A stretch of 54,798 nucleotides of DNA. Source: Clostridia bacterium. GTDB taxonomy: Bacteria; Bacillota; Clostridia; Christensenellales; CAG-138. Location: contig JAFPWD010000016.1 in assembly GCA_017395105.1 (NCBI GenBank), positions 1 to 54,798 on the forward strand. Reading direction: 5' to 3'. Positions 6,080-54,347 of the stretch are shown here, piece after piece (the first letter of the stretch is position 1; the number at the start of each line of letters is the position of its first letter). The translations under genes were made by a program, and so were the position numbers. The notes beneath the pieces are model-generated. The model saw only the letters and a list, made by a program, of their open reading frames with translations. It was not told the DNA's origin and searched no databases.

Positions 6080-6110
6080 TGTTTTTTCTCCTTTCATATA
6101 TGGCAAGAGA

Positions 6111-9533: not shown

Positions 9534-9618
9534 TTTTCGAGCTCCTTTCGGTGTTTTCGTTTTCCTGTTTATGCTTGGGTGCTTTTTAACGGCTCTTATG
9601 CGAACAACGATAATCGAA

Positions 9619-9664
9619 GAAATTCCGCAGGAATTCAACCTCAACTATTCATTATTCACCATTG
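9619..9664 (-). repeat. Intergenic hairpin-plus-GTGAATAGT repeat, copy 2
   Basis: On the minus strand GGTGAATAATGAATAGTTGA then GGTTG and a small stem (AATTCC/GGAATT, 9621-9626 and 9630-9635, 3-base loop). It starts immediately after the stop codon of ktrA. Same arrangement as copies 1 and 3. Confidence 0.6.
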
Positions 9665-9666
9665 AA

Positions 9667-10308
9667 TTAAGTAAGCTTCTCTATATCCTTGTCCTTGCCG
9701 AACACTATGAGGTGATCCTCGGCGTTGAAAACATAATCGGGGCCGGGAAGAAAAAGCCTGCCCTCGGGTGTTTTAACGGCGATGATGTTTACGCTGTGCC
9801 TTCTGCGAACGTCCACGGCCAAAATACTCTGGGTAATCCAGCGCTTGGGCGGGATGATCTCATAGATTGCGTGATCCTCGGAGAGCTTCAAAAAATCGAA
9901 GATACTGTCGTTTGCTATGGCAACGGCAAGGCGCTCGCTCATGTCGCGGTCGGGGAAAATGATGTGATCCGCGCCGTTTTTGAGAAGGAATTTCGCCTGT
10001 ATCTCGGTGGAAGCAACGGCGGTGATATTCTTTGCGCCGAATTCGCTTAATAGATCGACAATTTGCAGACTGTTTTGGAAGCTTTCGGGAACGCAGACAA
10101 CCGCCTCGTCGAAATCCTCAACGCCAAGTCCCTTAACAACGTCCCTTCTTGTGCAGTCGCCGACCTTGGCGCTTGAAACGTAGGAAAGCATGTCGGAAAG
10201 CTTCTCCTCATCGCCGTCCACTATCATTATCTCCACATCTTCCCTCGAAAGGAATTTGCAGAAATAATGCCCGAATTTGCCCGCGCCTATTACTATAAAG
10301 CTCTTCAT
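9667..10308 (-). CDS. ktrA: KtrA/TrkA-type potassium channel regulator
   Basis: Cytosolic RCK protein that binds nucleotide and gates the KtrB potassium translocator. It has an N-terminal Rossmann domain with GAGKFGHYF (about residues 8-16), an acidic strand end at IVDGDEEK, and a C-terminal TrkA-C domain (about 135-213). At 213 residues it is the short KtrA form rather than the duplicated TrkA of enterobacteria. It is encoded 85 bases downstream of ktrB on the same strand, its expected partner. Confidence 0.9.
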   Translation of the reverse strand: MKSFIVIGAGKFGHYFCKFLSREDVEIMIVDGDEEKLSDMLSYVSSAKVGDCTRRDVVKGLGVEDFDEAVVCVPESFQNSLQIVDLLSEFGAKNITAVASTEIQAKFLLKNGADHIIFPDRDMSERLAVAIANDSIFDFLKLSEDHAIYEIIPPKRWITQSILAVDVRRRHSVNIIAVKTPEGRLFLPGPDYVFNAEDHLIVFGKDKDIEKLT

Positions 10309-10393
10309 TTTTGCCTCCTAAAAGCGATATGGGAATGGAATACACCAATTCATTACCCGCTATTTTACCAAATAATCAAGGAAAAAGCAAAGC

Positions 10394-39590: not shown

Positions 39591-40316
39591 TCATTCTCCG
39601 ATCATCGCAAACCCAAACCCCTGCGAGCTCTTTCCTCCTATGCCGCAGTAGTATGCGGTATTTATCATATCCGCGTCTGCGCCCAACAGATAATTTCCGC
39701 GCCAGCCCGCGATATACATACCCTTATATTTCGTTATGCACCTTGATTTTTCGTTTTTCCAAAGGCAATCAAAGTGAAGCTCGCCTTCATACTCTCTGCC
39801 GAACACCTCGCGGTATTTGCGCTTTAGATTATTCGCTACAAGCTCTGCAAATTCCGGCTCATCGGGGGTGAAATAATGAATAAAGCCGTCCTCCTCCGTC
39901 CGATAGACCGTTATAGGCGTGTTCATCTTAAAAACCATCGCGCCGGTGGTAAAGCCGCATGAGCCTGTTTCAAAGCCGACAGCCTCGCAGCTGTACCCGC
40001 GAATATTCAGCCTCGGATCCTTTTTAAGCCGGTCTTCAATGGTATCTATCAGTATGTCGTCCGCGGCGCGTATCTCAAAATCAAATTCTCCCGCGTAAAC
40101 TCGTTTTCCGTTCTCGATGGTATACCGCCCCATAAGATCGGAAAAGGTGAAAAGCTTGATCGCCGCCTGAGCGCCCTCCTTCTTATCGTGAACGGCGGTC
40201 GATAGTCCGCGGTCAAACGACATAAGCTTATACACCAGCCCCTGCATTGCCTCAAAATGCGCAAAGGGCATAATAAGCTTTTCCTTCGGTTTGATGGTGA
40301 TGATTATATGCTTCAT
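39591..40316 (-). CDS. cas6: Cas6 CRISPR endoribonuclease
   Basis: Cuts the array transcript at the base of each repeat hairpin, leaving the 8-nt handle AUUGAAAC on crRNAs. RAMP-fold protein of 241 residues. Its N-terminal strand is KHIIITIKP, H43 in AVHDKK sits where Cas6 usually has its catalytic His, and the C-terminal glycine-rich loop GIGGKSSQGFGFA is diagnostic. The ATG at 40316 follows GAGGAAAAG. It lies 10 bases after cas2 and last in the RT-cas1, cas2, cas6 operon. Here it is a separate gene rather than a domain fused to RT-Cas1. Confidence 0.92.
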   Translation of the reverse strand: MKHIIITIKPKEKLIMPFAHFEAMQGLVYKLMSFDRGLSTAVHDKKEGAQAAIKLFTFSDLMGRYTIENGKRVYAGEFDFEIRAADDILIDTIEDRLKKDPRLNIRGYSCEAVGFETGSCGFTTGAMVFKMNTPITVYRTEEDGFIHYFTPDEPEFAELVANNLKRKYREVFGREYEGELHFDCLWKNEKSRCITKYKGMYIAGWRGNYLLGADADMINTAYYCGIGGKSSQGFGFAMIGE

Positions 40317-40326
40317 CTTTTCCTCC

Positions 40327-40590
40327 TCATAAATAATCAAGTGATACGAGCATGGTTTTCCCAATGCTCTCTTTTTTTACCGCTCCGAATGAATCGAGCC
40401 GGTAGATGATGACCGAGTCCTGCTCTGCATCGATCTCCGCTTCGAGGATCGCCTTTAGCCTGTTGTAGTTTCTCTCACTGATTTCTCCCTCGAAAACCGA
40501 TTTTTGAGCGCGAACAAGATACTGCTCGCACAGCTTGCGAACGCGGTCCGCACAATTGGAAGAAATATCGTATGCAAGCGCAATATACAT
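40327..40590 (-). CDS. cas2: Cas2 spacer-integration subunit
   Basis: Small ferredoxin-fold protein that dimerises and bridges Cas1 dimers in spacer integration. 87 residues; the first strand MYIALAYDIS carries the conserved Asp (D8), and a helix with KLCEQYLVRAQKSVFEGEIS follows, typical of Cas2. It starts 4 bases after the RT-cas1 stop and precedes cas6 by 10 bases, all on one transcript. Confidence 0.93.
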   Translation of the reverse strand: MYIALAYDISSNCADRVRKLCEQYLVRAQKSVFEGEISERNYNRLKAILEAEIDAEQDSVIIYRLDSFGAVKKESIGKTMLVSLDYL

Positions 40591-40594
40591 AGCT

Positions 40595-42502
40595 TCACCT
40601 CAACTGCCGAAAGCTCTTATGCCTGCGCTTGGCGCGAATATCGGCGCAAAGAGTGTTTATCTCGTCGCGGATTATCTCAGCATAAGTCTTGAGCTCGTTT
40701 CCGACCGATACGGCGGATGCAAGCTTTTCATGCAGTGCGGAAACGAAAAGCTTCTTTCCCGCGTTGGTCAGGTAAACTCCGCCGTTCTCCTCTTTTGCAA
40801 AATGCACGGGCGCGATCATTCGCTTGTTTATCATCGAAAAAATCGTTCGATCCACTATCAGCGGCTTGTACACGTCCGCAATATCCAAATCAAGCGATTC
40901 CCTGCGCCGATTCGTTGCATGAAGATATGCAATTCGGATGTCGAGCGAGGTTTTGTTTATGGCGGTTGCAATATAGTTATAAAGGAAGGTGTTGCCAAAG
41001 CTTATCATTGCGTTCACCTCATTTTTGGGCGGGCGGCGCGTTCGCTTTTCAAAGGCGAAATTCGGATTTTTGATGATCTCGTCAAAGCATGAATAGTATG
41101 CTCCCTGCATCCGCGCCTCGATGAGCAGCAGCTCCTCGATGGTTTTGCATGCCTTCATCTCGCTCTCCATCAGCTTCAGCGCCGCCAAAGCCTCGGTGCA
41201 GCGGCTGTTTTTATAGGTTTTTCTTTGATAGCGCAGATTCAGCATTATGTTGTGATTGCGCGAAATAAGAAAATCCCTTGCATAATACATTCGCATACCC
41301 TTTGCGCGTATGTATAGCTCAAGCTGATTCAGCGGAACGTTTATATCCCTAAATCCGCTTGCCGGCTCGAATCTGCCGAGCAGCTCGCCGAATTTATCGA
41401 AAATATTGATGCGTATGCCATTGTCAAAGGCCGCCTTGATGACCTGCGGCGCAAATGTAACTGAAGAGAATACGTTCAGCTGCTCGATCGCGCCTGCGGG
41501 CAGAACGGTCTTCTCACCGCCCTCCGCGGGCTCGAACATAAGCGCAAGCTCCCTGCGTGAAAGCAGACCGTTTGAAAGGATATTCACGGTTTTCGGCGAT
41601 GCTGCAAAGCGGTTCGCGGTCCAGTTGTCGTCATACCGCCCCTCGTCGCTTCGCGCCTGCTCCGAAGCCAATATCCCTCCGCGTTCGTCCCTTGCAAAAA
41701 CAAAGCCAAGGTACTCGAATTCATCCGCTCGCGCTATCATCAGCTTCTCCGTGTTCAGCTCAAACCGCAGCTTCTCCGTCAGTATATCCGAAGCGATTCT
41801 CGCCCGTTCGCTTGCCTCCTCCTCGCTCCGCGCGAACACGATAAGGTCGTCCGCATAGCGAACGAACGGTATCTCACAACTCTCCAGCAGTATGTCGAGC
41901 TCGTGAAAATAGATGTTCATCAGTATCGGGCTCAGCGGCGATCCCTGAAGAATGCCGCGCGCTCTCTTGTGCATTCCCTTTTCATCCGCAACGCTGCACT
42001 CGGCGTATGCTCGAATAAGCTCAAGCGCCGCTCCGCCGCCGATGGTGCTTTCAAGCTTTTCGTATAAAAGCTCGCGGTCAATGCTGTCAAAGCAGGCCTT
42101 GGGATCGATCCGCGCCGCAAAGCGGTATTTATTCGCGTATTCAATAAAGGCTGCCGCTGCCGCATGCCTGCCTCTGCCTGTGATATAGGCAAAGCTGTGC
42201 TTTGAAAAGCCGTCCGTCACCTCATCGGCAAGCAGCTCCGTAAGCGCTCTCTGGACAGTAACGTCCATCGCCGTAAAGCGGCAGACCTCGCGCTGCCGGC
42301 CCTTTCTGTTCACGATCGCAAAAAGCAGCGCGGGCTTCGGCGTGTAGTTGCCCTCCGAAAGCCTCTTTTCGATCAGATCGCCGTTCAAAAGTATGTGGTT
42401 GTAGTTCTGCGAAGCCGTCATGCCGTCGATGCCGGGGTTGAATTTTTCGCGGCGCAGTGCTCCTGATATGCGTATAAGCGCATCTTTATTCGGGGTTTTC
42501 AT
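40595..42502 (-). CDS. Reverse transcriptase-Cas1 fusion
   Basis: 635 residues combining two enzymes. The reverse transcriptase (about 1-290) is of group II-intron-like type, with motif A Asp in RIDPKACFDS (D133), RGILQGSPLSP (182-192) and the catalytic box YADD (216-219). The Cas1 integrase (about 300-635) has likely metal ligands E462 (IEARMQGAYY), H528 (YLHATNRR) and an acidic residue in LDLDIADVYKP (D540/D543). Such fusions accompany type III systems and can acquire spacers from RNA. There is no fused Cas6 domain. GAGGTGA precedes the ATG and a consensus promoter faces away from the array. Both active sites look intact. Confidence 0.95.
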   Translation of the reverse strand: MKTPNKDALIRISGALRREKFNPGIDGMTASQNYNHILLNGDLIEKRLSEGNYTPKPALLFAIVNRKGRQREVCRFTAMDVTVQRALTELLADEVTDGFSKHSFAYITGRGRHAAAAAFIEYANKYRFAARIDPKACFDSIDRELLYEKLESTIGGGAALELIRAYAECSVADEKGMHKRARGILQGSPLSPILMNIYFHELDILLESCEIPFVRYADDLIVFARSEEEASERARIASDILTEKLRFELNTEKLMIARADEFEYLGFVFARDERGGILASEQARSDEGRYDDNWTANRFAASPKTVNILSNGLLSRRELALMFEPAEGGEKTVLPAGAIEQLNVFSSVTFAPQVIKAAFDNGIRINIFDKFGELLGRFEPASGFRDINVPLNQLELYIRAKGMRMYYARDFLISRNHNIMLNLRYQRKTYKNSRCTEALAALKLMESEMKACKTIEELLLIEARMQGAYYSCFDEIIKNPNFAFEKRTRRPPKNEVNAMISFGNTFLYNYIATAINKTSLDIRIAYLHATNRRRESLDLDIADVYKPLIVDRTIFSMINKRMIAPVHFAKEENGGVYLTNAGKKLFVSALHEKLASAVSVGNELKTYAEIIRDEINTLCADIRAKRRHKSFRQLR

Positions 42503-42720: not shown

Positions 42721-45350
42721 CTTTTGCCATTCCCATAGGGAATTGAAACGAAAGAATTTACGCTTAAACTCCGCGTCATACTCCTTTTGCCATTCCCATA
42801 GGGAATTGAAACCCGCAGGGCTTGTTGGGGCTACTTTTTAGAGCAGCTTTTGCCATTCCCATAGGGAATTGAAACAAGACGGCAAGACGCCTTTTTATAG
42901 CTTCCTGCACCAGCTTTTGCCATTCCCATAGGGAATTGAAACTTGTAGGCATAAACTACCTCCTTAAAATATTTTAGCTTTTGCCATTCCCATAGGGAAT
43001 TGAAACTCGGCGAGCTGCACGTAAATATCGAGACCGTCGGTCGTGCCGAAACTGCTTTTGCCATTCCCATAGGGAATTGAAACAATTAAGCGATTTCGTA
43101 AAATCGCCCAACTTCCACTTTTGCCATTCCCATAGGGAATTGAAACTCAATAATCAGAAACACTGATATATTGGCTAAGCAGGCTTTTGCCATTCCCATA
43201 GGGAATTGAAACCTCATATCAGAGTTTATGATAGCAATCCGCAGACTTTTGCCATTCCCATAGGGAATTGAAACGGATTGAAATCGTATAACAAATCAAC
43301 AACGAGTCTTTTGCCATTCCCATAGGGAATTGAAACGATTTACCGATTTTACTTACTGAAAATGGCAACACTTTTGCCATTCCCATAGGGAATTGAAACG
43401 GGACCGGTGATCGTCATGTGTGCGTTATCCATTTTCTTTTGCCATTCCCATAGGGAATTGAAACATAGTTAGTTACCAACTGTATGATTCAAATCTTGTT
43501 GCACTTTTGCCATTCCCATAGGGAATTGAAACCTCTCGGCGGCTGCAAGGGCTTCTATCTCCGCATCCTTTTGCCATTCCCATAGGGAATTGAAACAATA
43601 TATTCCGCATCAAACGACACATAAGGTACATTGGCCTTATCTTTTGCCATTCCCATAGGGAATTGAAACACTTCCTGCAAAGAGCAACAACCCGCGCAGT
43701 CCTTTTGCCATTCCCATAGGGAATTGAAACATACTCCACGGTCTTTTGGCTTGTGCGGTGTCGCTACTTTTGCCATTCCCATAGGGAATTGAAACGTGAC
43801 GAAAACGATATGGCTCTCCGTAAACGGGATGGTGCATAACCTTTTGCCATTCCCATAGGGAATTGAAACCTCCCACCGCAGCCATTTCAGATCGTTTCAT
43901 GTCACTTTTGCCATTCCCATAGGGAATTGAAACTAACCTCAACGGGGATATCCGTCCTGCCGTTGCAAGCTTTTGCCATTCCCATAGGGAACTGAAACCT
44001 TATCCCATACATAGCCGAGCGCGGAACACTTATCGCCTTTTGCCATTCCCATAGGGAATTGAAACAAGCCGTCGCGCTCAAAGAGTATTCGTCCGGCACG
44101 TCTTTTGCCATTCCCATAGGGAATTGAAACGTGTCAGTCACGCAGGAATACCGCCTGCCCCGTATCCTTTTGCCATTCCCATAGGGAATTGAAACACAAC
44201 AAAACGGAAACAGAAACGCTAATATTTCCGTTTCTTTTGCCATTCCCATAGGGAATTGAAACCCCGCATTGTTTACGCGTTTACTTAACCTGTGGACTTT
44301 TGCCATTCCCATAGGGAATTGAAACGAAACAAGGACCACGCAGTAGACATGTGTTTCCTTTTGCCATTCCCATAGGGAATTGAAACAGTAAAATACTGCC
44401 ATAAACATCGCGCCGACAAACAGCTTTTGCCATTCCCATAGGGAATTGAAACATGGAGTCTTTTTCAACTGACGACGACTATCAACAGCTTTTGCCATTC
44501 CCATAGGGAATTGAAACTTGTCCCTTGCTTTTAGCGCCAATATAGTCTTGGAATCTTTTGCCATTCCCATAGGGAATTGAAACAATACCGCATCCAGATT
44601 AGCCCAAAACTCTTTACTTTTGCCATTCCCATAGGGAATTGAAACATAATTCTTTCAATTTCGTCAGCTTCTTGATCAGCTTTTGCCATTCCCATAGGGA
44701 ATTGAAACCATGTAGGCACAAGATTGTCTGGAATACTTATTCCCTTTTGCCATTCCCATAGGGAATTGAAACGTATTGGCTTGTTGCGAAGCAACTCATA
44801 CTTCCTGCTTTTGCCATTCCCATAGGGAATTGAAACTTGCCTTCCGGTGTGTTGAAAAAGTCAAACGCTTCCTTTTGCCATTCCCATAGGGAATTGAAAC
44901 GCTTTTTTGAGGTTTCTAGAATTTCCTTCTCTGTCCTTTTGCCATTCCCATAGGGAATTGAAACCCATCGTTTGCGGCATATAGTTTAGCTATTTCTGGT
45001 TTACAGCTTTTGCCATTCCCATAGGGAATTGAAACAATAGCGTCCATTGGTTTTGCTTCTCTATCATGTACGACTTTTGCCATTCCCATAGGGAATTGAA
45101 ACGCAGATTTGCAGGGGAGTAAATGGTAAAATCTCGCCTTTTGCCATTCCCATAGGGAATTGAAACTAGAAGATAACCATTGAGCACATTTCGTATTTTC
45201 TTTTGCCATTCCCATAGGGAATTGAAACCTTTTCCTTTCGGTTTTAATTATTTCGAGCTCCCTTTTGCCATTCCCATAGGGAATTGAAACACCTCCTTGT
45301 TAAGATGCTTGGAATTAAAATTGCTTTGCCATTCCCAAAGTGAGACCGGC
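42721..45350 (+). CRISPR. Type III CRISPR array, 40 repeats plus a degenerate terminal one
   Basis: The 29-bp repeat starts CTTTTGCC, contains the palindrome ATTCCCATAGGGAAT and ends ATTGAAAC. I count 40 copies from 42721-42749 to 45262-45290. All are identical except copy 20 (43970-43998), which has AACTGAAAC. A decayed 41st copy at about 45324-45350 keeps only CTTTGCCATTCCCA. The 39 spacers between the 40 repeats are mostly 32-39 bases, with long ones of 48, 44, 45 and 42 (numbers 5, 14, 17 and 35). None are duplicated by eye. The ATTGAAAC end marks rightward transcription, matching the leader promoter, and gives the standard type III handle. Confidence 0.98.
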
Positions 45351-45477: not shown

Positions 45478-45981
45478 ATGCTTTATTTCAGTTTTGATGC
45501 CGAAACGGACGGGCTTTACGGCGAGGTCTTCGCCATTGCCGCGATCGTTGCGGGCGATAACGGCGAGATCGTGGACAGCTTCCTGCTCAAATGCGTCGAG
45601 CCCGGCGTTTCCGATCCCTGGACGAGGGAATACTGCCTGCCGAATCTTGCGGATATCCCGAGTTGTGAGAGCCGCGCCGAGCTTCGGCAAAGGTTTTGGA
45701 GCTTCTATATGCGCTGGCGAGATGAGTGCGTTGCGGTGGCGGACGTTCCTTGCCCCGTGGAGGCAGGTCTTCTGCGCGCCTGTGTGGAGGAGGATGAGGA
45801 AAACCGCCGCTTCCTTGCGCCGTATCCGCTGATCGACGTTGCCTCCGTGCTGTTTGCGCACGGCGTGGATCCGCATATCGACCGCTTCGAGTTCTCGGGG
45901 CATGAGGGAAGCAAACATAATCCCTTGGATGATATGATCGCTTCGACAAAATGCTTGCTGAAGGTTTTGAATAAGCGGTAA
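45478..45981 (+). CDS. Small DEDDh 3'-5' exonuclease
   Basis: 167 residues with the RNase H-like exonuclease fold: D7 and E9 in FSFDAETDG (motif I), a candidate D89 in VADVPCPVEAG (motif II) and H147 with D151/D152 in HNPLDDMIAS (motif III, DEDDh type). CGGAGGTG precedes the ATG. It lies between the array and the effector operon. Two roles fit: degrading the second messenger made by Cas10, as recalled for DEDD nucleases next to CorA effectors, or trimming prespacers, as DnaQ-like enzymes do in other systems. Its position beside the CorA-like gene favours the first. It is not fused to Cas2. Confidence 0.85.
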   Translation: MLYFSFDAETDGLYGEVFAIAAIVAGDNGEIVDSFLLKCVEPGVSDPWTREYCLPNLADIPSCESRAELRQRFWSFYMRWRDECVAVADVPCPVEAGLLRACVEEDEENRRFLAPYPLIDVASVLFAHGVDPHIDRFEFSGHEGSKHNPLDDMIASTKCLLKVLNKR

Positions 45982-46014
45982 GCCGCGAGAAATGTGCGGA
46001 AAAAGACAAGCGGG

Positions 46015-46043
46015 TTGACTTGCGGAATAAGCTATGATATAAT
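46015..46043 (+). promoter_or_regulatory. Promoter of the effector/cmr operon
   Basis: TTGACT (46015-46020), exactly 17 bases, TATAAT (46038-46043). The leader is about 60 bases to the ATG at 46112. The tight gene spacing downstream suggests one transcript through cmr6. Confidence 0.8.
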
Positions 46044-46111
46044 ATGCATGCTGTTTAAGCCGTATCGCATCGTGCATTTCAGTGTCAAAAATTCTCCACG
46101 GAGGATCAGCC

Positions 46112-47716
46112 ATGCTGGCATATAGCTATCATTCATTTATGTTGCCTCTCATCTGGGATCACGGAAACAAGGGTGATCCTTCCTTTGCCAAGCTTTGCCG
46201 CGTGTTTGACGATAATCCTTATTGGAATAACGCCGATCCCGATCCCGAAACGGGCTTCTCGCCGGAGGATGACCCGCTTGATTTCTATTCCGAATATCAG
46301 TATTTCTATCCGCAGGCGCGCGGCGCGCTGTACGGCTACGGCGGCAAGGTTGTGCGCTCATTCGTTATGGCGGAGCAGAGCGTACGCAACAAGGCGAAAT
46401 ATATCATCAAAAAGGGCGACACGACTTATAACCTGCTGCTAAATGCGATCAGGGTGAAGATATACTCAAGCGGCGTGATGCTGTTTATGCTCGAGTGCGA
46501 GAACCACGAGCATTGCGACCTTGCTTCGGTCAAGGCGATAAACGATTACGGAAGGAGGATCTGCCTTCCATTTATCAAGCCATTCGGTTCCGCCTGCGCG
46601 GACAAGCTTGAGATTGTTATAGACGATCTCGGAGTATTTGAAACGGACTTCGATGCGTTCCGGCAGAGAATGCTCGATGCTTCTGCAGATAAGGACAGCA
46701 GAAGGCGTGCGATCAATCTTGACTATATGGCGGGCTATATCCGCAGGTTGCTCGGCTTTGGCTCGGAGTATGAATTCGTTTCATCCGAAACGAGGAACAA
46801 AAAGCATATCTTCATCCGCCCCGCTTTGGATGATCGAATGTTCGTTGCCTGTGCTGTGACCGACAGGGAGCGGACGGGGGCTTTCCTTTCAGTTCCGGGG
46901 AACGATACCGAGAAAATAGAGCGCGAATATGCGTTCATGCGGGATGAACCGCTGCAAAAATCATTATATGAACTCATCTTTTTGGATAGAGAAGATTATT
47001 GCTCCTGTATGAATGAGAAGATGCGAAAGGAGCTGCTCGATGCGCATGTGTACAAGCGCTGGCTCGACAGCGGCAGCATCTATGCAATCGCCGCGCAGAG
47101 CCTTGTGATGCTTACGGACGGCGGAGCATCCTTCCTGGTTGATAATTTTTTGACCGAATACGTTAAGATGGCCTGTCTCTGCCTTGCTCAGCGCGCTTCG
47201 CTGATTCTTTTTCAAAAACAGATAGCAGCTATTTCAACAAGAATGAACGACGGCAAAAAACGCACGGGAGTCCGATCGGTTTCCGCGCTGATGAACGTTC
47301 AGGAGCGATTTTCAACCTTTGAAAGTCAGCTTTGCTTCGATGAGATAAGCTCGCAGGAGCAGGCAATCGAGCTTTACGATATGTTCCGCTCCTCGTTTAA
47401 GATCGAAGGCGAGCTGGAAAACGTCAAATCCCAGCTTGAAGGGCTGAACCATACCGCCGATACCTACCTCGAGCTCGGCTTCAATAAGATAGGCTATATC
47501 TTCGCTCTGCTTGGCGCGATCTATGCGCTCGGCGAGATATTTAAGGACGAGTTCGCCGCGCTGATCGGCCGTGGACTCGCCCGGCTGACGGGCAATTCGG
47601 AGTATGCATCCGAAGCCGCACCGCTCCCGGTATGGACGCTGTTCGGGATTCTTGTGCTTAGCGGTGCATTGGTGTGGTTCATAGTCAGATTCTATTACAG
47701 AAGGAGAAGAAGGTAA
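46112..47716 (+). CDS. CorA-like two-TM membrane effector of the type III system
   Basis: 534 residues from the ATG at 46112, which follows ACGGAGGA. A large soluble N-terminal region (1 to about 350) includes YFYPQARGALYGYGG and KAINDYGRRICLPF. A long helical stalk (about 400-460) then leads into two closely spaced TM helices (about 465-483 and 505-525) and a basic tail YYRRRRR. Stalk plus two C-terminal TM helices is the CorA plan, although the GMN motif of magnesium channels is not visible. As recalled, CorA-type proteins in HD-less type III-B loci are activated by SAM-AMP and disrupt the membrane. Annotation as that effector rests on topology and context. Confidence 0.6.
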   Translation: MLAYSYHSFMLPLIWDHGNKGDPSFAKLCRVFDDNPYWNNADPDPETGFSPEDDPLDFYSEYQYFYPQARGALYGYGGKVVRSFVMAEQSVRNKAKYIIKKGDTTYNLLLNAIRVKIYSSGVMLFMLECENHEHCDLASVKAINDYGRRICLPFIKPFGSACADKLEIVIDDLGVFETDFDAFRQRMLDASADKDSRRRAINLDYMAGYIRRLLGFGSEYEFVSSETRNKKHIFIRPALDDRMFVACAVTDRERTGAFLSVPGNDTEKIEREYAFMRDEPLQKSLYELIFLDREDYCSCMNEKMRKELLDAHVYKRWLDSGSIYAIAAQSLVMLTDGGASFLVDNFLTEYVKMACLCLAQRASLILFQKQIAAISTRMNDGKKRTGVRSVSALMNVQERFSTFESQLCFDEISSQEQAIELYDMFRSSFKIEGELENVKSQLEGLNHTADTYLELGFNKIGYIFALLGAIYALGEIFKDEFAALIGRGLARLTGNSEYASEAAPLPVWTLFGILVLSGALVWFIVRFYYRRRRR

Positions 47717-48255
47717 TGAGCAGTAACAACATACTCAAAAAACTGTATGATGCGATATGGCTCAAATACAAACTCAAAAAGCTGCGTTATGCGATGTGGC
47801 GAGTGAAGTGGCTCTTTCATTTCACAAGAAACAACCCCTGCCATACGCAGAGATTCTATCATGAGTTCATTAAGACGATTGGACTTGATGAATGGAAGAA
47901 ACTAAACCCCGAGATGCGAAACGCATGGAATGCCGCAGCGGGCAGCTTCGATAAGCAGTATGGGCTTGTGAAGGCTTGGCGCGGGATAGAATTCAAAGGG
48001 GAACCGTATTTGGACGGAAAAACACGCAACGAACCTGATGTTGAAGAGTTAAATAATAAAGCGAAGAAACTCGAGAAGCTCGTCGATCAGCTTGATAGAG
48101 TGCTGAAAGCTGCTATTGCGGCAAAAGTGGATGCGGACACACTGACACGCTCTACGGTCAAAAAGCTTAGCGAGTTGGCGGCCGAGATGGGTGAAACCGC
48201 AGAACGGCTTGTGCCTAAACAGGCGGACTCGAAGAAACCAAAACAGAAGAATTAA
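47716..48255 (+). CDS. Unknown coiled-coil protein in the cmr operon
   Basis: 179 residues. The ATG at 47716 shares a base with the stop of the CorA-like gene (TAATG), so it is translationally coupled. The N-terminal 50 residues are very basic and aromatic (LRYAMWRVKWLFHFTRN). A middle segment follows (about 50-110, LNPEMRNAWNAAAGSFDK), then a heptad-like helix (about 115-160, ELNNKAKKLEKLVDQLDRVL) and a charged tail. I recognise no domain. Its coupling to the membrane effector and place before cmr1 suggest it modulates that effector or docks it to the membrane or the Cmr complex; this is inference. Confidence 0.75.
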   Translation: MSSNNILKKLYDAIWLKYKLKKLRYAMWRVKWLFHFTRNNPCHTQRFYHEFIKTIGLDEWKKLNPEMRNAWNAAAGSFDKQYGLVKAWRGIEFKGEPYLDGKTRNEPDVEELNNKAKKLEKLVDQLDRVLKAAIAAKVDADTLTRSTVKKLSELAAEMGETAERLVPKQADSKKPKQKN

Positions 48256-48275: not shown

Positions 48276-49571
48276 ATGAGAAGTTTTGAACTGGTCTATG
48301 AACTTAAGCAGCAAACGCCGATCATACATTTTCAGTATGCTCAAAAGGGCGCCGCGCTGCGAGCTACGGAGGTCAAACCGAAGCTGGACAGGTATATCGC
48401 CAAACAGTACTGGAAGCTGACAGGGGCGAGTATACCGAAGAAGTGGTTGATCCAAGATGGAAAAGGCGCGCTGGCCGCCGATGCCGCCGAGCGCACCCGA
48501 GATAAGCGGTTGATCCCGGATGAAAAAGGCGCGCTGAATTACCGAATGGTGATAAAAAGCGAAGGCGAAGAGCACGTTGAACTTGGTCGCAAAACTCCAT
48601 ACGACATTTATTACGGAAACAGCGGCAGAGACAAGCCGATATTGGGATCAAAATCCAAAAAGCTTAGTCTGAAGCTGATCTGCACGGTCCGATATAAGGA
48701 TAACAGAACGGGCAAAACGCTGCTCGAGTTTATGAATGAGATGATCCCTTCCTTTTTCATCACGCATAACTTCGGATCGATGCAGCGAAAGGGATTCGGC
48801 TCGTATGTGATAGGCTCGCCTGATCGTGATGAGATAGCGAAAGCATTGACTGAGCACTATGGGGCAAGCCGCTGTTATGCGTTTGACGTCGATAATGATG
48901 ACATCAATGGCGATTTCAATACATTTGCAAGAATCAAGCATATTTACAGCATAATCAAATCCGGTGTCAATCTTGTTGACGGCACAGGCGATAATCATGG
49001 CAGATACAGGCGTTCGCTGCTGTTCTTATACATGCATGAAAGGCAGAATATCAGCAATGAAAAGGCGTGGCTTAAGCAGAACAATATGGCACCTACGAAC
49101 GTTGGCCTTAATGCCGGAGCGTGGCACCGACCTGCCGCCAACCATCCATCTCATTATGTCAGAGCGATTCTCGGCGTAGGTGAAAAGCTCGAGTTTCGCA
49201 ATTCTCTTGACAGGGAGAATCGCAGCAAGACGATAGTTAAGATCAAAAGCGATGTCATCGGCAGATTGAAATCACCGATCTTTTTCAAGGTGATAGGCAA
49301 CGTGGTCTACTATATCGGAGAACAAATCAATCCTGTGATATTTGGTCAAGACTTCGTGTTTACCTCACGCGGAACAGTAAAAAACCTTACTGTGCCGGCA
49401 GCCTCCCATTTTGATATTGCGGACTTTTTGGAATATTGCTACGAGCAGTTGAATTATAGCAGTGATGACATTCAAGCGAATTATCCCGGTTCGGGTTATA
49501 AGGCTCTAAGAGACTTTCCTCTGACAAGAGGTGTGAGAATAAGAAGATACGAAGGGGGTTCTTGGGCATGA
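48276..49571 (+). CDS. cmr1: Cmr1-type RAMP subunit
   Basis: 431 residues from the ATG at 48276, which follows AAGGAGG by 8 bases; an ATG at 48270 is too close to that site. The opening YELKQQTPIIHFQ, then ATEVKPKLDR, matches the RAMP start of Cmr1 in Bacteroidetes-like type III-B loci. The glycine-rich loop FGSMQRKGFGSY is a RAMP hallmark. Cmr1 caps the 3' end of the crRNA-bearing backbone and helps capture target RNA. Its stop overlaps the cas10 start (ATGA). The assignment to Cmr1 rather than another RAMP rests on gene order and these motifs. Confidence 0.8.
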   Translation: MRSFELVYELKQQTPIIHFQYAQKGAALRATEVKPKLDRYIAKQYWKLTGASIPKKWLIQDGKGALAADAAERTRDKRLIPDEKGALNYRMVIKSEGEEHVELGRKTPYDIYYGNSGRDKPILGSKSKKLSLKLICTVRYKDNRTGKTLLEFMNEMIPSFFITHNFGSMQRKGFGSYVIGSPDRDEIAKALTEHYGASRCYAFDVDNDDINGDFNTFARIKHIYSIIKSGVNLVDGTGDNHGRYRRSLLFLYMHERQNISNEKAWLKQNNMAPTNVGLNAGAWHRPAANHPSHYVRAILGVGEKLEFRNSLDRENRSKTIVKIKSDVIGRLKSPIFFKVIGNVVYYIGEQINPVIFGQDFVFTSRGTVKNLTVPAASHFDIADFLEYCYEQLNYSSDDIQANYPGSGYKALRDFPLTRGVRIRRYEGGSWA

Positions 49572-51106
49572 ATAAACAAACCTACATCGCCATCACCATC
49601 GGCCCCATTTTCGACACGATGAGCCTTGTTTCCACTCCCGCCGCGCTCTGGGCTTCGAGCTATATGTTTTCCTATATCTCAAAGCGCCTGCGCGAGGAGC
49701 TGATCGAAAGCGGAGTCGATAACGATGCGTTCATTACCCCGTATATGAAGGATGATACCGTGCTCGAGCGTAACCCGGGCGTGGGCATGCTTCCGGATCA
49801 TATCATCTTCAAAAAGCCGGAGGGTTTCACCTTTGCCGCCTTCGAACTCGCGAAGCAGGCCGTGCTCGAAGATGTGAATAAGAAGTTTCACATTCATGAT
49901 TTGAAATTCCTTTCGGAATACATAATGATCTCCGCGGTGGAGTTCGAGGCAAGCAACCCCATCATGGAGAGCAACGGCCCCATCAATGCGCTTGAGCTTG
50001 CAAAGGCGTTTGTGGCGAAGGAAAAATGCAATCCGCTGCTTGAATACTTCACAAATGATGGCAGCGACACAAACAAAAACAATGCTATCAAGGTCAGCGC
50101 AATGCAGATAATCGGCAATAACGGTCAAGAATGGCAGCTTCTCGACAGAATGAAGAATATACGCCAACTTGAGCATATTGCCCGCGCCGAAACGACAGAT
50201 AATTTCAAGCGCCATCGCTATTACGCGATAATCCGTTCCGACGGCGACAACGTGGGCAAGACCATCTCCGAGCTGACCAACGCCGATGAGTTCCACAGCT
50301 TCTCCGAGAGCTGCATATCGTTTTGCGAGGGGATAGCGGCGTTAGTTAAGAAATTCAACGGCGTTACGATCTACGCGGGCGGCGATGACCTGCTTGCGAT
50401 CCTGCCCTGTGAAAGCGGCGGGGATAAGCACCTTTTCCGCTTCGTGCGCCGTGCAAACGCGCTGTTCAAGGATAAGCTCGGAGCTATGTTCGAGGCCGCA
50501 AACAAGGCGCGAAGGGAAAAGAATCCAAACGCCGAGGAGTACGAGCCCTCGCTCACCTTCGGCATAACCGTTGCACACTATAAGTACCCGCTCTACGAAA
50601 CGCTTGAGGATTCTGCGAATCTGCTCTTTGGCGTTGGAAAAAGACAGGATGACTATAAAAACGCAGTCCTGCTTCGCCTTATCAAGCATTCGGGGCAGAC
50701 AAGCACCGTTTGGATCCATAACGACGTGCTTTCCGATGGTGTCATCTGCACGAAAAACGCGCTTATCTCCCTGCTCGATCGGGCGGTCGCGGGCGGCGAA
50801 GCATCAAATGACCTGCTGCTCTCCGCGTTCCATAAGGTCGCCATGTTCGAATCGCTTTTCAACTCGGTGGACAAGGCTCAGGTCGTCAACCTGTTCAAAA
50901 ACACCTTCGACGATACCTCCCACCAGGGCAGCGACTTCCTGCACAAGGAGCTGCCGGAGTTGTTTGGGGAGCGTATCCTCTCGGGAAGCATCGCGGCACT
51001 TGGCGCAGACGGCAAAAAACCCGATCCCAAGGATCCTGCCGCTGCGTTGAACAGCCTTATGAGGATAGTCAAATTCTACGTTGAAGAGGCAGGTGAAGAA
51101 AAATGA
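49568..51106 (+). CDS. cas10: Cas10 (Cmr2), cyclase-type, lacking the HD domain
   Basis: Large subunit of the Cmr complex. 512 residues, about half to two thirds of the usual length, because the N-terminal HD nuclease is absent. The protein opens directly with TYIAITIGPIFDTM and the LWASSYMFSYIS helix of the first Palm-side domain. The Palm motifs are RSDGDNVGK (about 223-231) and the catalytic GGDD at 271-274 (YAGGDDLLAI), so nucleotide-messenger synthesis is predicted to be intact while DNA cutting is not. The ATG at 49568 overlaps the cmr1 stop. It is coupled to cmr3 by another ATGA overlap. Confidence 0.93.
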   Translation: MNKQTYIAITIGPIFDTMSLVSTPAALWASSYMFSYISKRLREELIESGVDNDAFITPYMKDDTVLERNPGVGMLPDHIIFKKPEGFTFAAFELAKQAVLEDVNKKFHIHDLKFLSEYIMISAVEFEASNPIMESNGPINALELAKAFVAKEKCNPLLEYFTNDGSDTNKNNAIKVSAMQIIGNNGQEWQLLDRMKNIRQLEHIARAETTDNFKRHRYYAIIRSDGDNVGKTISELTNADEFHSFSESCISFCEGIAALVKKFNGVTIYAGGDDLLAILPCESGGDKHLFRFVRRANALFKDKLGAMFEAANKARREKNPNAEEYEPSLTFGITVAHYKYPLYETLEDSANLLFGVGKRQDDYKNAVLLRLIKHSGQTSTVWIHNDVLSDGVICTKNALISLLDRAVAGGEASNDLLLSAFHKVAMFESLFNSVDKAQVVNLFKNTFDDTSHQGSDFLHKELPELFGERILSGSIAALGADGKKPDPKDPAAALNSLMRIVKFYVEEAGEEK

Positions 51107-52335
51107 CCAAGTATCTATTCAAGTTTACCCCCGTTGAACCGTATTTCTTCGGGAATGAGAAAACGCTCGCAAAGTATCCCGAGTATGATGGGAAAAAGAA
51201 CGAACAAAACGATGCAGCTGCGAAAAAAACGGACGGGCAGAGCAATGCGCCGACCGCCGATACAGCCTCGATTCAGAGCCTTTACTTCGCTTCAAGCGAG
51301 GATACGCCGTCCCAATCCACGATACTCGGCGCGATAAGGCTCATGCTGCTGCTCGACAACGGCAGGAGCTTGACCGATTTTAATGCATACACGAAGGCCG
51401 AGAAAGACCTTATCGGCCCCAAGAGCTTTAAGCCCGATGAACATGATACGGAATTCGGCTGTATTAAAAGTATCTCTCCGCTGTTCATTATCGATGGAAA
51501 CGACCAAGCTTTCATCCCGATGCCGCGAGATCATGTCTTTTCCGACAAAAACGAAAACTACACCCCCTTTGGCGAATATAAGGCCATGCGCTGTGCCGAG
51601 GGCGAAAAGCTCTATCCGACCGAATACGATCCCAAAACCGCCGGGTGGTACACCTTCGTTTCGACCAATGGCGGCTGCATCAAGGATATGATCAGCTCCG
51701 AGGTGCGAGTTGGCATCAAACGCAAAACGCAAGACAAGGGCTTTTTCAAGCGCAGGTTTAAAAAGCTGAATAAAGACTATTCCTTCGCGGTGATCTGCGA
51801 GCTGAACTGCACGGTCGATGAAGACGGCATGTTCAGAAACGCGGGAACGCATCCCGATCAGGCTTTCTCCGATTGGCCCGTCCGCAAGACCGCCTTCCTC
51901 GGAAGGGCGCGTTCGCCGTTTGCGGTGGAGATCTATCAAACGGATATGGATATCGAAGCTTTATCGCAGCAGCTTCTTGATACAAAGCATAAGGCTACGC
52001 GGTATCCGAGCGCGGAATGCACTCTTGTTTACTGCCTCTCGGACGCCTTCGTTTTGCCCGAGAAAAAGTATGAAAACGTGCTCTTCGCCGCAACCGAAAC
52101 AAGGGATCATCGCTCGCTTTCAACGGGCGAGAAGAACGGCATGCTGTATAAGCGCAAGGATTTGAGCGTTATGCACCGCCTTCTTAAAGCGGGAAGCGTG
52201 CTCGTTTTCGAAAACGAGAAGACTGCGGCGTGCTGGATAAAAAATAACACCGACGGCCGTGAATCCGCTAAGAATATTGGCTATAATAGTTTCATTACAG
52301 TTCCAAAGAAGGAAGAAAACAAGGAGGAAGAATAA
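51103..52335 (+). CDS. cmr3: Cmr3-type RAMP subunit
   Basis: 410 residues. The start KYLFKFTPVEPYFFGNEKT and the glycine-serine segment SQSTILGAIRLMLL match Cmr3, the Cas5-like subunit that grips the 5' handle of the crRNA next to Cas10. A hydrophilic, Lys/Asp-rich insertion (about residues 28-55) looks disordered. It overlaps cas10 by the ATGA and directly abuts cmr4, as in standard III-B operons. Confidence 0.88.
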   Translation: MTKYLFKFTPVEPYFFGNEKTLAKYPEYDGKKNEQNDAAAKKTDGQSNAPTADTASIQSLYFASSEDTPSQSTILGAIRLMLLLDNGRSLTDFNAYTKAEKDLIGPKSFKPDEHDTEFGCIKSISPLFIIDGNDQAFIPMPRDHVFSDKNENYTPFGEYKAMRCAEGEKLYPTEYDPKTAGWYTFVSTNGGCIKDMISSEVRVGIKRKTQDKGFFKRRFKKLNKDYSFAVICELNCTVDEDGMFRNAGTHPDQAFSDWPVRKTAFLGRARSPFAVEIYQTDMDIEALSQQLLDTKHKATRYPSAECTLVYCLSDAFVLPEKKYENVLFAATETRDHRSLSTGEKNGMLYKRKDLSVMHRLLKAGSVLVFENEKTAACWIKNNTDGRESAKNIGYNSFITVPKKEENKEEE

Positions 52336-53157
52336 ATGAAAACGCATCTTTACAAGCTTACCTGCATCACCAATATGCACGTCGGTTCCGACTCTTCGAA
52401 TTACAGCATCGTGGATAACGAGGTCGAGAAGGACGATCTGCTCGGCTGCCCCACCATCCATTCCTCCGGCGTTAAGGGTGCGCTCAGGGATATGGCCGAA
52501 GGTCTCAAGCCTGATCTTTCGGAGAATGCGATAAATAGGATCTTCGGCGCACCTGCCGAGAAGAATAAAATCGAGACCCCGGGTGCCTTCGCCTTTGTTG
52601 GAGCGCATATGCTCACCCGTCCGCTTCGCGCTTCGGGCGGGAATTTGACCTATATCAACGTTACCACCCCGACCGTGGTAAACAACTTCATTACCCTCGT
52701 CAATAGCTTCGACTGCGTGCCGGAGGGACTTAAGGACCTCAAGCCGATCGATCCGATTTTCCATGAAAAACAGTTCCTCTGCACCATACAGGATATCAAG
52801 ATCGAGGATGAGGAGACCGCACCTCTCAGCATAGATCCTATGCAGATTGAGCTTCTCAAAACGCTGCTTGGAGGGGATTTTGCTCTGGTACAGAGCTTTG
52901 AGGACTATCCGCTGCCGGTGGTGGCGAGGAACAAGCTTGGCGAAAACAAGAATCTCTGGTATGAGGAGCTAGTTCCGCATCACACCGTGTTCTATCTCAT
53001 CATCATATCACCGGAGAAGTGTGATGCGGATATCGAGGTCGACAAGTGGCTCAAGGATGAAAGCATAGTTCAGTTCGGCGGCAATGCCTCGATCGGCTGC
53101 GGCTACACTCTTATGAAAAAATGGGAGGGAACAAACGATGAACAGAAAGATCGATAA
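52336..53157 (+). CDS. cmr4: Cmr4 backbone and target-RNA cleaving subunit
   Basis: Cas7-like subunit repeated along the crRNA. 273 residues. The RAMP start CITNMHVGSDSSN, IHSSGVKGALRD and the C-terminal FGGNASIGCGY are diagnostic. D27 in SIVDNEVEKDD is at the position of the catalytic Asp that cuts target RNA at 6-nt intervals, so RNA cleavage should be active. It begins one base after the cmr3 stop and overlaps cmr5 by 20 bases. Confidence 0.93.
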   Translation: MKTHLYKLTCITNMHVGSDSSNYSIVDNEVEKDDLLGCPTIHSSGVKGALRDMAEGLKPDLSENAINRIFGAPAEKNKIETPGAFAFVGAHMLTRPLRASGGNLTYINVTTPTVVNNFITLVNSFDCVPEGLKDLKPIDPIFHEKQFLCTIQDIKIEDEETAPLSIDPMQIELLKTLLGGDFALVQSFEDYPLPVVARNKLGENKNLWYEELVPHHTVFYLIIISPEKCDADIEVDKWLKDESIVQFGGNASIGCGYTLMKKWEGTNDEQKDR

Positions 53158-53575
53158 GCTTATCCCCAAAGCGATCGATGCGCTTAAGGACACGGCAAAC
53201 TGCAAGATCTCGACCGACGGAAGAAGCATCGACAGCGCCTACCGTTCCGCGATCTCATCCTTCGGAGCGGCGATCACGCTCGGAAGCCTGAAGGCTGCCG
53301 TAGCCGTATTTACCAAGGATGCCGAAGGCGGAGAAGCGGGCATCAAGCGCTCGGAGCTGCTTCGTGCGATACATTTCCTTGTTTTCGAAAATGAGGGATG
53401 GCTGGAAAAAGCTGAGGTTTTCAACAGGGTGATCGCAGAGACGGCTATATCGGCAAACGAGCGCAGCCTCAGGCGCAGATTCATCAATGCCGCCGTTGCG
53501 CTGAAGCTTGCGATGAATGCTTTTGAGCTGACAAAGAAGGAAAATACCGGAGGTGGTGAAGGTGCAGAATCTTAA
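53138..53575 (+). CDS. cmr5: Cmr5 small subunit
   Basis: All-helical small subunit lining the target-RNA channel. 145 residues with the typical core AISSFGAAITLGSLKAAVAVF and a later AIHFLVFENEG. It overlaps cmr4 by 20 bases and its end overlaps the cmr6 start. GGAGGGA in the cmr4 tail is its ribosome site. Confidence 0.9.
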   Translation: MNRKIDKLIPKAIDALKDTANCKISTDGRSIDSAYRSAISSFGAAITLGSLKAAVAVFTKDAEGGEAGIKRSELLRAIHFLVFENEGWLEKAEVFNRVIAETAISANERSLRRRFINAAVALKLAMNAFELTKKENTGGGEGAES

Positions 53576-54347
53576 CCTCTTATTCAATAAGACCTATTTT
53601 TCGGAACTCGAAGTTCCTGTCAATGATGGTGCACGCAAACGCAATGATAAATGGTTCAGTGTCCACAATAAGATGATAATCGGTATCGATCCCGATTCCG
53701 ATTCCCAACTCCCCCAATTCTCCGCCACGGATTACGCCAATTTCATGGATGAAGCAACGGCGGACAGGCTCTGCACCCATCGCTTCATTATGAAAACCCT
53801 CTACCCGGGACTGCTTGTCGGCACCGGCTATGCGCACGAGGCGACGCAGGGCTCGAACAACTGCATCAAGCTCGGCTTCTCCTTCGACTATGTGACGGGT
53901 CAGCCGTATATTCCGGGAAGCTCCGTGAAGGGTATGCTAAAAAGTTGCTTTAGCGAGGCAAGCGTTATCGGCGAGATCATGGAGCCAATGGGCGTGAAGC
54001 TGACCGATCAGCAGGTCAAGAATCTGCGAGAGCAGATCTTTGAAGGCAATCGTGACGTTTTCTTCGATGCTGTGATAAGAGCAGGCGACGAAAAGCAGCG
54101 TATCCTCGGAGAGGACTATATAACGCCGCACGGAAAAGATGAAACCAAGTCGCCCAACCCGCTTTTGATGCTCAAGATCCTGCCGGATGTTAAGTTCGAG
54201 TTCAGATTCAGGCTGACCGATTCCATGCTTTCGGAGGAGTGCATCGTATCCGCGGATGTCAAACGGCGCCTGTTTATGGAGCTGCTGTCCATCTTCGGCA
54301 TCGGCGCAAAGACCAACGTAGGCTACGGCATCCTCGAGCTGGTATAG
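53562..54347 (+). CDS. cmr6: Cmr6-type RAMP subunit
   Basis: Cas7-like subunit near the 3' end of the crRNA. 261 residues; PGLLVGTGYAHEAT, GQPYIPGSSVKGMLKS and the C-terminal GIGAKTNVGYGILEL are classic Cmr6 features. I chose the GTG at 53562 because CCGGAGG lies 8 bases upstream; earlier GTG codons overlap that site. The gene stops at TAG (54345-54347), but the same frame stays open for 87 more codons into a zinc-ribbon segment, raising the question of readthrough or a recent nonsense mutation. Confidence 0.92.
   Translation: MQNLNLLFNKTYFSELEVPVNDGARKRNDKWFSVHNKMIIGIDPDSDSQLPQFSATDYANFMDEATADRLCTHRFIMKTLYPGLLVGTGYAHEATQGSNNCIKLGFSFDYVTGQPYIPGSSVKGMLKSCFSEASVIGEIMEPMGVKLTDQQVKNLREQIFEGNRDVFFDAVIRAGDEKQRILGEDYITPHGKDETKSPNPLLMLKILPDVKFEFRFRLTDSMLSEECIVSADVKRRLFMELLSIFGIGAKTNVGYGILELV

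Follow-up and report, generated by a model that had tools for sequence, protein, structure and literature searches.

The locus described here raises the question of which messenger its Cas10 produces, which protein responds to it and how it is removed again. The analysed stretch, referred to as the window, comprises 54,798 bp of contig JAFPWD010000016.1 (assembly GCA_017395105.1, Clostridia bacterium) and stems from a genome that is 68% complete. A gene for a CorA-like membrane protein heads the tightly packed gene series corA-orf179-cmr1-cas10-cmr3-6, with RT-cas1, cas2, cas6 and a CRISPR array close by. The gene content is that of type III-B (Cmr1-6 with Cas10/Cmr2). We consider it likely that this type III-B system signals via SAM-AMP, with the CorA-like protein as effector and a DEDD-type nuclease for turnover of the messenger. 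The observed basis of this reading consists of gene content, homology, residue conservation and recurrence of the locus; from it we infer the identity and binding of the messenger, the channel action, and the reaction and role of the nuclease. The features are as follows.

39591..40364, minus strand: cas6 (Pfam Cas_Cas6_C, E 3.6e-29)
40327..40590, minus strand: cas2 (Pfam, E 1.3e-19)
40595..42502, minus strand: RT-cas1 fusion (Pfam RVT_1, E 5.6e-25; Cas_Cas1, E 2.1e-72)
42721..45290, no strand assigned: CRISPR array, 40 exact copies of the repeat core followed by one degenerate copy
45478..45981, plus strand: dedd, ORF for a 167-aa DEDDh-like exonuclease, predicted SAM-AMP phosphodiesterase, with homologues in five other corA-cmr loci
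46015..46043, plus strand: promoter-like site in front of corA (TTGACT-17-TATAAT, TG before the -10 element)
46112..47716, plus strand: corA, 534-aa CorA-like membrane effector, predicted to be SAM-AMP-gated (PADLOC PDLC01174, E 4.1e-69)
47716..48255, plus strand: orf179, ORF of 179 aa with a homologue in L002
48270..49571, plus strand: cmr1 (PADLOC Cmr1, E 7.6e-68)
49568..51106, plus strand: cas10/cmr2 without HD domain, with GGDD, D77 and E143 (Pfam palm2, E 2.7e-23; aligned to PDB 9lq5)
51103..52335, plus strand: cmr3 (PADLOC Cmr3, E 2.8e-20)
52336..53157, plus strand: cmr4 (Cmr4, E 8e-33 in the scanned ORF set; homologous gene in L002-L004)
53138..53575, plus strand: cmr5 (Cmr5, E 1.6e-28 in the scanned ORF set; homologous gene in L002-L004)
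53553..54347, plus strand: cmr6 (Cmr6, E 2e-29 in the scanned ORF set; homologous gene in L002-L004)

The CRISPR repeat reads CTTTTGCCATTCCCATAGGGAATTGAAAC on the plus strand, and its copies are mostly 61-77 nt apart (39 copies listed by the repeat search). None of 50,697 phage records matched the array in megablast at E<=1. The two ORFs singled out by the initial annotation, dedd and corA, are both intact and conserved in five other CRISPR loci. Their ATG codons are preceded by 'ggaggtg' and 'ggagga', respectively; a GTG 30 nt further upstream would extend the corA product to 544 aa. The promoter-like site before corA matches 11 of 12 consensus positions. As three such sites were found compared to 3.3 expected from shuffles, its position and quality alone count in its favour and are suggestive. 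The start codon of orf179 shares one base with the corA stop codon. The orf179 product is 47% identical over 81 aa to a protein of L002 (loci L001-L009 compared); in a sample of 81 genomes, which does not include that of L002, it was found in its own genome only. Searches in Pfam, PADLOC and NCBIfam assigned it to no convincing family.

The dedd product shows identities of 66% to its homologue in L002, 43% in L042, 39% in L066 (Syntrophothermus lipocalidus), 31% in L003 and 31% in L004, with 32 invariant columns across the six proteins from CRISPR loci. Motif I (DxE) corresponds to D7 and E9 and motif III (H-x4-D) to H147 and D152. These motifs and their order are shared with E. coli DnaQ, oligoribonuclease, RNase T and ExoX. 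For motif II, Glu95 aligns with the Asp of 'FD' in the PolC exonuclease 2p1j and in DnaQ, and is present in 15/15 aligned relatives, compared to 9/15 for D89. D89 was dropped as a candidate, since both alignments place E95 at this position. The motif II acid is thus probably Glu (PVE) instead of the Asp (FD) of the E. coli DEDDh exonucleases. The label 'DEDDh' used in the initial annotation therefore applies in a broad sense only.

Membership in the DEDD superfamily is modestly supported by profile comparison. In hhalign, a 13-row profile of the family matched an alignment of DnaQ, Orn, RNase T and ExoX with a probability of 60 (E 8e-5), while 15 negative controls with the same query gave E>=0.16. 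Other row sets gave lower values (six CRISPR rows: probability 12, E 0.0024; 15 rows: probability 19, E 0.0013). Individual E. coli enzymes gave weak matches, and RNase T did not stand out from some of the controls. Pfam RNase_T matched one of six family members (E 0.21). The window protein itself matched no Pfam or PADLOC family and only one NCBIfam model at chance level, its relatives (six in Pfam, two further ones in PADLOC) gave no usable match, and a PDB search with the single sequence returned nothing at E<=1. Loci of this kind are easily under-annotated, because the nuclease and the relatives tested lack a usable family match.

Nine loci, including the window, contain a strong CorA homologue together with Cas10; they include close kin (window and L002, L003 and L004). 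Six encode the DEDD protein, one a DHH/NrN enzyme (PADLOC DHH_CorA, E 6e-91), one a SAM-AMP lyase (L041; PDB 9lqd, E 3e-70) and one none of the three. No two of these enzymes were found together in any of the nine loci, which fits a replacement of one messenger-degrading enzyme by another. L073, which has Cas10 and only distant CorA-like genes and is not counted among the nine, yielded no DEDD, NrN or lyase gene.

This distribution bears on an alternative that we regard as unlikely, namely that the exonuclease has no messenger role and acts in RNA processing, trimming 3' ends of crRNA intermediates or RNA protospacers for RT-Cas1. The protein resembles exonucleases of the RNase T/Orn type, and Cas6 and RT-Cas1 are present at the locus. 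Crispr RNA trimming was also proposed for the NYN nuclease of Bacteroides fragilis, with mention of RNA protospacers, and this enzyme left SAM-AMP undegraded in that study (PMC11346440). However, none of the nine CorA loci was found to combine the DEDD protein with NrN or the lyase. Of 391 genomes sampled from the class, two gave strong matches to the DEDD profile, both with corA and cas10, whereas crRNA trimming would be expected for type III systems in general.

Turning to the messenger itself, the Cas10 protein carries GGDD at residues 271-274, and its Pfam domains at E<=1 are Cmr2_N (residues 8-92), palm2 and mCpol, with nothing else. This agrees with the earlier description of a GGDD-containing Cas10 without HD domain. 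The accompanying claim that the island encodes no CARF effector is in line with the scan: none was present among the PADLOC matches listed (25 of 43 families) for 33 further ORFs of the window (the 30 longest non-overlapping of 78 plus cmr4-6). As the genome is 68% complete, such an effector may be encoded elsewhere. D70 and E151 of B. fragilis Cas10 are the SAM-site residues described in PMC10600005, and in PDB 9lq5_B the residues D70, E151, D328 and D329 follow the numbering of that paper. D77, E143, D273 and D274 of the window Cas10 align with these four residues. E143 was left unaligned by single-sequence phmmer; a profile of eight Cas10 proteins resolved the alignment. Both SAM-site acids are present in the Cas10 proteins of all nine CorA loci and in that of L125, whose genome has CorA on another contig. 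They are jointly present in none of the three other Cas10 proteins aligned; the Cas10 of L073 lacks both.

It is accordingly very unlikely that the product of Cas10, sensed by the CorA-like protein and degraded by the exonuclease, is another messenger such as cyclic oligoadenylate, pppApA or a linear dinucleotide. The two acids are both of the SAM type, and no Csm6-type model is among the PADLOC families listed. Moreover, a 3'-5' exonuclease needs a 3' end, which cyclic molecules do not have. In favour of a different messenger, a cA6 response was proposed for a divergent Actinomyces CorA clade (PMC11229360), and DEDD relatives such as REXO2 are described to degrade linear dinucleotides (PMC10600005).

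The corA product matches the PADLOC 'CorA-like' defence model PDLC01174 over residues 4-496. Its two strongest hydropathy peaks are both C-terminal (460-478, 1.54; 507-525, 2.33), in line with the two transmembrane segments noted initially; two weaker peaks lie at 109-127 and 325-343 (cut-off 1.3). Hence, by sequence, the protein has the layout of CorA effectors, with a characteristic N-terminal domain and a CorA-like membrane domain at the C-terminus. A PDB search with the sequence alone returned nothing at E<=1, while a search with the family profile gave five matches at E<=0.1, all to the membrane region of CorA transporters (E 0.07-0.09, weak). The proposed relation to CorA, for which an unrelated fold had been named as counter-evidence, is thus supported at the sequence level by the PADLOC match and these weak transporter matches. 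Identities are 63% to L002, 31% to L042, 28% to L066, 33% to L003 and 32% to L004. Two CorA homologues, one of which ends early, were observed in genomes without detectable Cas10, a point that counts against the SAM-AMP reading. Weak matches in four genomes of the same family (L006-L009) were taken as chance; a check of the match in L007 showed the ATPase of an ABC transporter.

Among 11 homologues, R148, D240 and D241 are conserved in 11/11 and R149 in 10/11. Judged from motif and spacing, these RR/DD pairs appear to match R152-R153 and D219-D220 of B. fragilis CorA, where the pairs are required for immunity.

The GMN motif is the signature of CorA transporters. An ordinary Mg2+/Co2+ transporter, with both genes being chance neighbours of the CRISPR genes, was rejected as most implausible despite the related C-terminal region. 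GMN is absent from 11/11 family members (window and ten relatives), Pfam CorA (PF01544) does not match, the large N-terminal domain recurs in the CorA proteins encoded at eight further loci with cas10, and the corA stop codon overlaps orf179, which comes next in the cmr series.

Taken together, the SAM-AMP assignment suggested initially is supported by D77/E143 of Cas10, R148-R149/D240-D241 of the CorA-like protein and a DEDD partner as in S. lipocalidus. In the proposed SAM-AMP pathway, binding of foreign RNA by the Cmr-crRNA complex would activate the Cas10 palm, which would join AMP (from ATP) to S-adenosylmethionine. The CorA-like protein would then take up SAM-AMP in its cytoplasmic domain, with the RR/DD pairs at or close to the binding site, and in the bound state may open or disrupt the membrane, thereby stopping the infected cell. 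The DEDDh-like exonuclease, a predicted SAM-AMP phosphodiesterase, would cut the phosphodiester bond from the AMP end and yield SAM and AMP, the products reported for NrN. Cleavage would keep the messenger low, reset the alarm and perhaps keep the channel responsive. Among the published accounts available to us, degradation tests with SAM-AMP concern NrN and lyases, and none was found for a DEDD enzyme.

A DEDD gene beside corA is described for the type III-B loci of Streptococcus oralis and S. lipocalidus (PMC10600005), and we found the homologue adjoining corA in the latter (G629). In both species, as in the window, the cmr locus contains corA with a gene for a DEDD-family nuclease as its neighbour; the S. 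lipocalidus proteins are 39% (DEDD) and 28% (CorA) identical to those of the window. Distinctive of the window are the 130 bp between dedd and corA, which hold a promoter-like site, and the presence of orf179 after corA. The arrangement is thus already published, and the window is most likely another, well-preserved example. The B. fragilis Cmr-CorA-NrN system likewise combines a D70/E151 Cas10 and a CorA-like effector with a gene whose product degrades the messenger (PMC10600005), the enzyme being a DHH phosphodiesterase instead of the predicted DEDDh-like exonuclease. Loci with a SAM-AMP lyase (L041; PMC12255297) have the same type of effector and Cas10, with a PII-like lyase in place of the phosphodiesterase. 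The initial annotation regarded the DEDD nuclease as a candidate off-switch. The term may be too simple, because immunity of the reconstituted system from B. fragilis is reported to depend on degradation of the messenger (PMC12255297).

Relatives of the nuclease were also found on 17 IMG/VR viral contigs. One of them (L092, positions 5992-6492), which has a portal gene about 1 kb upstream, is 46% identical to the CRISPR enzyme of S. lipocalidus. In the tree of DEDD proteins, seven of 12 inner branches are open, and CRISPR and viral rows are not separated. When viral contigs were searched with the S. lipocalidus protein alone, none of three candidates was confirmed; the CorA profile likewise gave 0/21 confirmed candidates on IMG/VR contigs. 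The window DEDD protein had no tblastn match at E<=0.1 in 50,697 phage records, which speaks against its wide spread in sequenced phages. It is possible that the viral relatives are anti-CRISPRs. More tentatively, the family may be a clade of its own among 3'-5' exonucleases, marked by a motif II Glu (DEEDh) and specialised in SAM-AMP and similar nucleotide messengers, representing a third kind of turnover enzyme in CRISPR systems and an anti-CRISPR in phages.

The window and L002, which comes from an uncultured member of the Clostridiales in the same family, offer compact loci for testing the least-studied type of SAM-AMP-degrading enzyme, beside RT-Cas1. A third enzyme chemistry would help to test whether turnover itself matters for immunity, and the phage relatives of the DEDD protein provide a testable anti-CRISPR lead.

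The nuclease gene and the gene of the CorA-like membrane protein beside a III-B system, described in the initial annotation as a candidate SAM-AMP (or other non-cOA) signalling pair, were confirmed as real, intact open reading frames. Together with a third gene, they precede cmr1:

45478-45981, + strand: dedd, small nuclease gene, intact ORF of 167 aa
46112-47716, + strand: corA, CorA-like membrane protein gene, intact ORF of 534 aa from ATG, good ribosome-binding site
47716-48255, + strand: orf179, ATG sharing one base with the corA stop codon, end 14 nt ahead of cmr1

After cmr1 follow cas10, cmr3, cmr4, cmr5 and cmr6, each overlapping or with zero gap. The genes RT-cas1, cas2 and cas6 are located on the opposite strand, past an array in which the repeat core occurs in 40 exact copies. 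Between dedd and corA, a promoter-like site (TTGACT-17-TATAAT, TG ahead of the -10) was observed, although shuffled sequence contains no fewer such sites. Among the loci compared, orf179 is common to the window and L002 (uncultured Clostridiales RUG13271) only. In positions 1-39000, ORFs of the scanned set match the PADLOC models PDC-S01, RmrA, dGTPase and mad3. The assembly, of which the window is contig 17, has 1.9 Mb, is 68% complete and yielded one Cas10.

In this Cas10, the Cmr2_N match covers residues 8-92 and no HD domain precedes it, in agreement with the earlier description of a Cas10 lacking this domain. PDB 9lq5_B (600 aa) has D at position 70, E at 151 and DD at 328-329; since these numbers agree exactly with D70, E151 and D328-D329 of Bacteroides fragilis Cas10 in the excerpted text of PMC10600005, the structure was taken to be that protein. 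The residues align with D77, E143 and D273-D274 of the window Cas10. Both acidic residues at the D77/E143 places are present in all nine Cas10s of CorA loci (eight and that of L091), including that of L004 (Schwartzia), which has GGED instead of GGDD. In the three comparison Cas10s, where the alignment is poor, the pair is never complete (L123 E/A, L124 D/Q, L073 S/T), and PMC10600005 gives N300 and R436 for these positions in canonical Pyrococcus furiosus Cas10. The comparison left out L122, a second Cas10-like match in genome G473 with no ORF of 300 aa or more containing GGDD, GGED or GGDE. In genome G286, a CorA homologue was found at a contig start (L045:6-1403), with purine-synthesis-like genes further along, and a Cas10 carrying D and E of the SAM-AMP type on a different contig (L125:2426-4027). 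The two are perhaps one system, split by the assembly or acting in trans.

The membrane protein matches two 'CorA-like' defence models of PADLOC with E-values of 4e-69 (residues 4-496) and 5e-69 (residues 4-461). It has no match to Pfam CorA and the GMN motif is absent from all 11 family members compared, which is why we refer to it as CorA-like and not as a CorA transporter. At E ≤ 0.001, the PADLOC CorA-like model finds matches in 142 of the 391 class genomes; among the weak matches listed, the majority fall on C-terminal model positions (roughly 348-444). When an 11-sequence profile was compared with PDB at E ≤ 0.1, only CorA structures were obtained, in the membrane region (E 0.07-0.09), and from these matches kinship with CorA can still be recognised. 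By hydropathy, the two highest peaks fall in the C-terminal part and two weaker ones further in. The proposed CorA-type assignment is supported at the sequence level. R148 and D240-D241 occur in 11 of 11 homologues and R149 in 10 (His in L004). Based on motif and spacing, these pairs would correspond to R152-R153 and D219-D220 of B. fragilis CorA, which are required for immunity according to passages of PMC10600005.

For the nuclease, no Pfam or PADLOC match was found and the NCBIfam match is at chance level. Among six DEDD members, weak Pfam matches were obtained to Rv2179c-like (two members, best 0.0025), RNase_H_2 (0.015) and RNase_T (0.21), but also to MIF4G_like_2 (0.0019) and DUF4800 (0.21). 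A profile of 13 relatives matches, over 148 columns, an alignment of DnaQ, Orn, RNase T and ExoX (prob 60, E 8e-5), whereas 15 other E. coli proteins yielded E-values of 0.16 or worse for this query. Against the same alignment, the six CRISPR rows alone gave prob 12 (E 0.0024) and 15 rows prob 19 (E 0.0013). With each DEDD query, single E. coli enzymes matched weakly, RNase T and once DnaQ being no better than some controls. Of the DEDDh label given initially, motifs I and III are fitted by D7, E9, H147 and D152. For motif II, PolC and DnaQ alignments pair the Asp of 'FD' with Glu95 ('PVE') and the His before it with D89; the motif-II acid is probably Glu95. This residue is found in 15 of 15 aligned relatives (eight later-found viral contigs were left out of this count), while position 89 is Asp in nine and His in six. 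Pending a structure, the predicted catalytic set is therefore D7-E9-E95-D152 with H147.

The search for CorA homologues covered one genome-contig scan, which gave 3 loci, and partly overlapping samples of 151, 391, 398, 189 and 63 genomes. Nine distinct loci (the window, L002, L003, L004, L042, L066, L040, L041 and L091; L053 duplicates L002 and L067 duplicates L004) combine Cas10 with a strong CorA homologue, defined by E < 1e-100 with a profile, A6, built from most of those loci. Outside the nine are loci with only distant CorA-like genes or without Cas10 in the fetched DNA. The DEDD gene is present in six of the nine: the window, L042 and L066 have it upstream and codirectional, L002 has it divergent, and in L003 and L004 it follows cmr6; identities to the window nuclease are 66% (L002), 43% (L042), 39% (L066), 31% (L004) and 31% (L003, Anaerovibrio). 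L040 has a DHH gene (PADLOC DHH_CorA, E 6e-91) and L041 a SAM-AMP lyase (PDB 9lqd, E 3e-70). Neither DEDD, NrN (the DHH-type phosphodiesterase) nor lyase was found in L091, nor in L073, a Cas10 locus with distant CorA-like genes outside the nine. No two of these enzymes were found together in any of the nine; for NrN and lyase, a single query sequence each was used. In 391 class genomes, the DEDD profile gave four matches, two strong ones in CorA-Cas10 loci (own genome and G473) and two weak ones, one a piece of 48 positions and the other an 870-aa frame. The homologous L066 enzyme is taken to be that of Syntrophothermus lipocalidus, one of two species named in PMC10600005 with corA adjoining a DEDD gene, so that by homology the window nuclease is assigned to this published CorA-associated DEDD group.

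Directly before corA, L091 has a gene of about 100 aa (8842-9144) whose WDGH-domain match is weak, falling below the Pfam cut-off, and which also matches PHROG phage families (E 2e-7); it is possibly a fourth turnover enzyme. In L089, a CorA homologue (9080-10924) is followed by a SAM-AMP-lyase-like gene (10942-11328) and the contig end, past which any cas genes would have to be located. On plasmid pTM1 of Tistrella mobilis, a DEDD relative (L102:8013-8555) adjoins RAMP-type CRISPR genes and the gene of a 584-aa protein with a GGDE motif; the profile detected no CorA among six proteins tested.

The window locus probably follows a SAM-AMP signalling scheme. Foreign RNA would activate Cas10, which would join AMP to SAM; the resulting SAM-AMP would act on CorA and be cut by the DEDD nuclease. 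From the enzyme class, 3'-5' exonuclease attack on the AMP end would yield AMP and SAM, the products of NrN. The pair reading proposed at the outset is supported by D77/E143 of Cas10, the RR and DD pairs of CorA and the DEDD gene in six of nine loci. The term 'off-switch' used for such enzymes may be an understatement, because degradation by NrN or lyase is required for immunity in the reconstituted B. fragilis system, as described in passages of PMC12255297. No DEDD-enzyme assay was found in the open-access literature searched, and the 2025 classification describes SAM-AMP pathway components as not thoroughly characterised (PMC12669027).

DEDD relatives are encoded on 17 different IMG/VR contigs (L092-L100, L112-L114 and L117-L121; nine in one search, 15 in another). 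The nine of the first search share 31-44% identity with the window nuclease; for the relative in L092, identity is 46% with the S. lipocalidus enzyme and 42% with that of the window. Ten neighbouring proteins scanned at six of these loci included portal or terminase in three fetched stretches (L092, L098, L100), integrase and exonuclease in L093, an Abi-alpha-like gene in L099 and no match in L096. No CorA candidate was confirmed with the profile in viral contigs. As an anti-CRISPR role has been proposed for a phage SAM-AMP lyase (PMC12255297), the viral proteins are candidates for a phosphodiesterase version. They may equally be general phage exonucleases. PHROG 2259 'RNase H' matches two of nine relatives scanned (eight viral, one plasmid) and also the S. 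lipocalidus CRISPR enzyme (E 4e-6), and the DEDD tree does not settle the descent of CRISPR versus viral enzymes.

CorA homologues with both RR and DD pairs were also found in two genomes (95% complete) without a match in the Cas10 palm search (L043:9756-11141; L044:9115-10452). In the CorA tree (midpoint root), their position next to the DEDD-linked CorA clade is moderately supported (80/91). The L044 frame stops inside the membrane region, with TAA within the PADLOC match. A further locus, L090, has no Cas10 within its 13.3-kb contig.

Taken together, the window locus is another case of the published CorA-associated arrangement, with the observation confirmed and its interpretation supported. 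Four points, each only a lead, might be new to a specialist: the motif-II Glu, the DEDD relatives in phages, the solo CorA proteins and the L091 WDGH gene.
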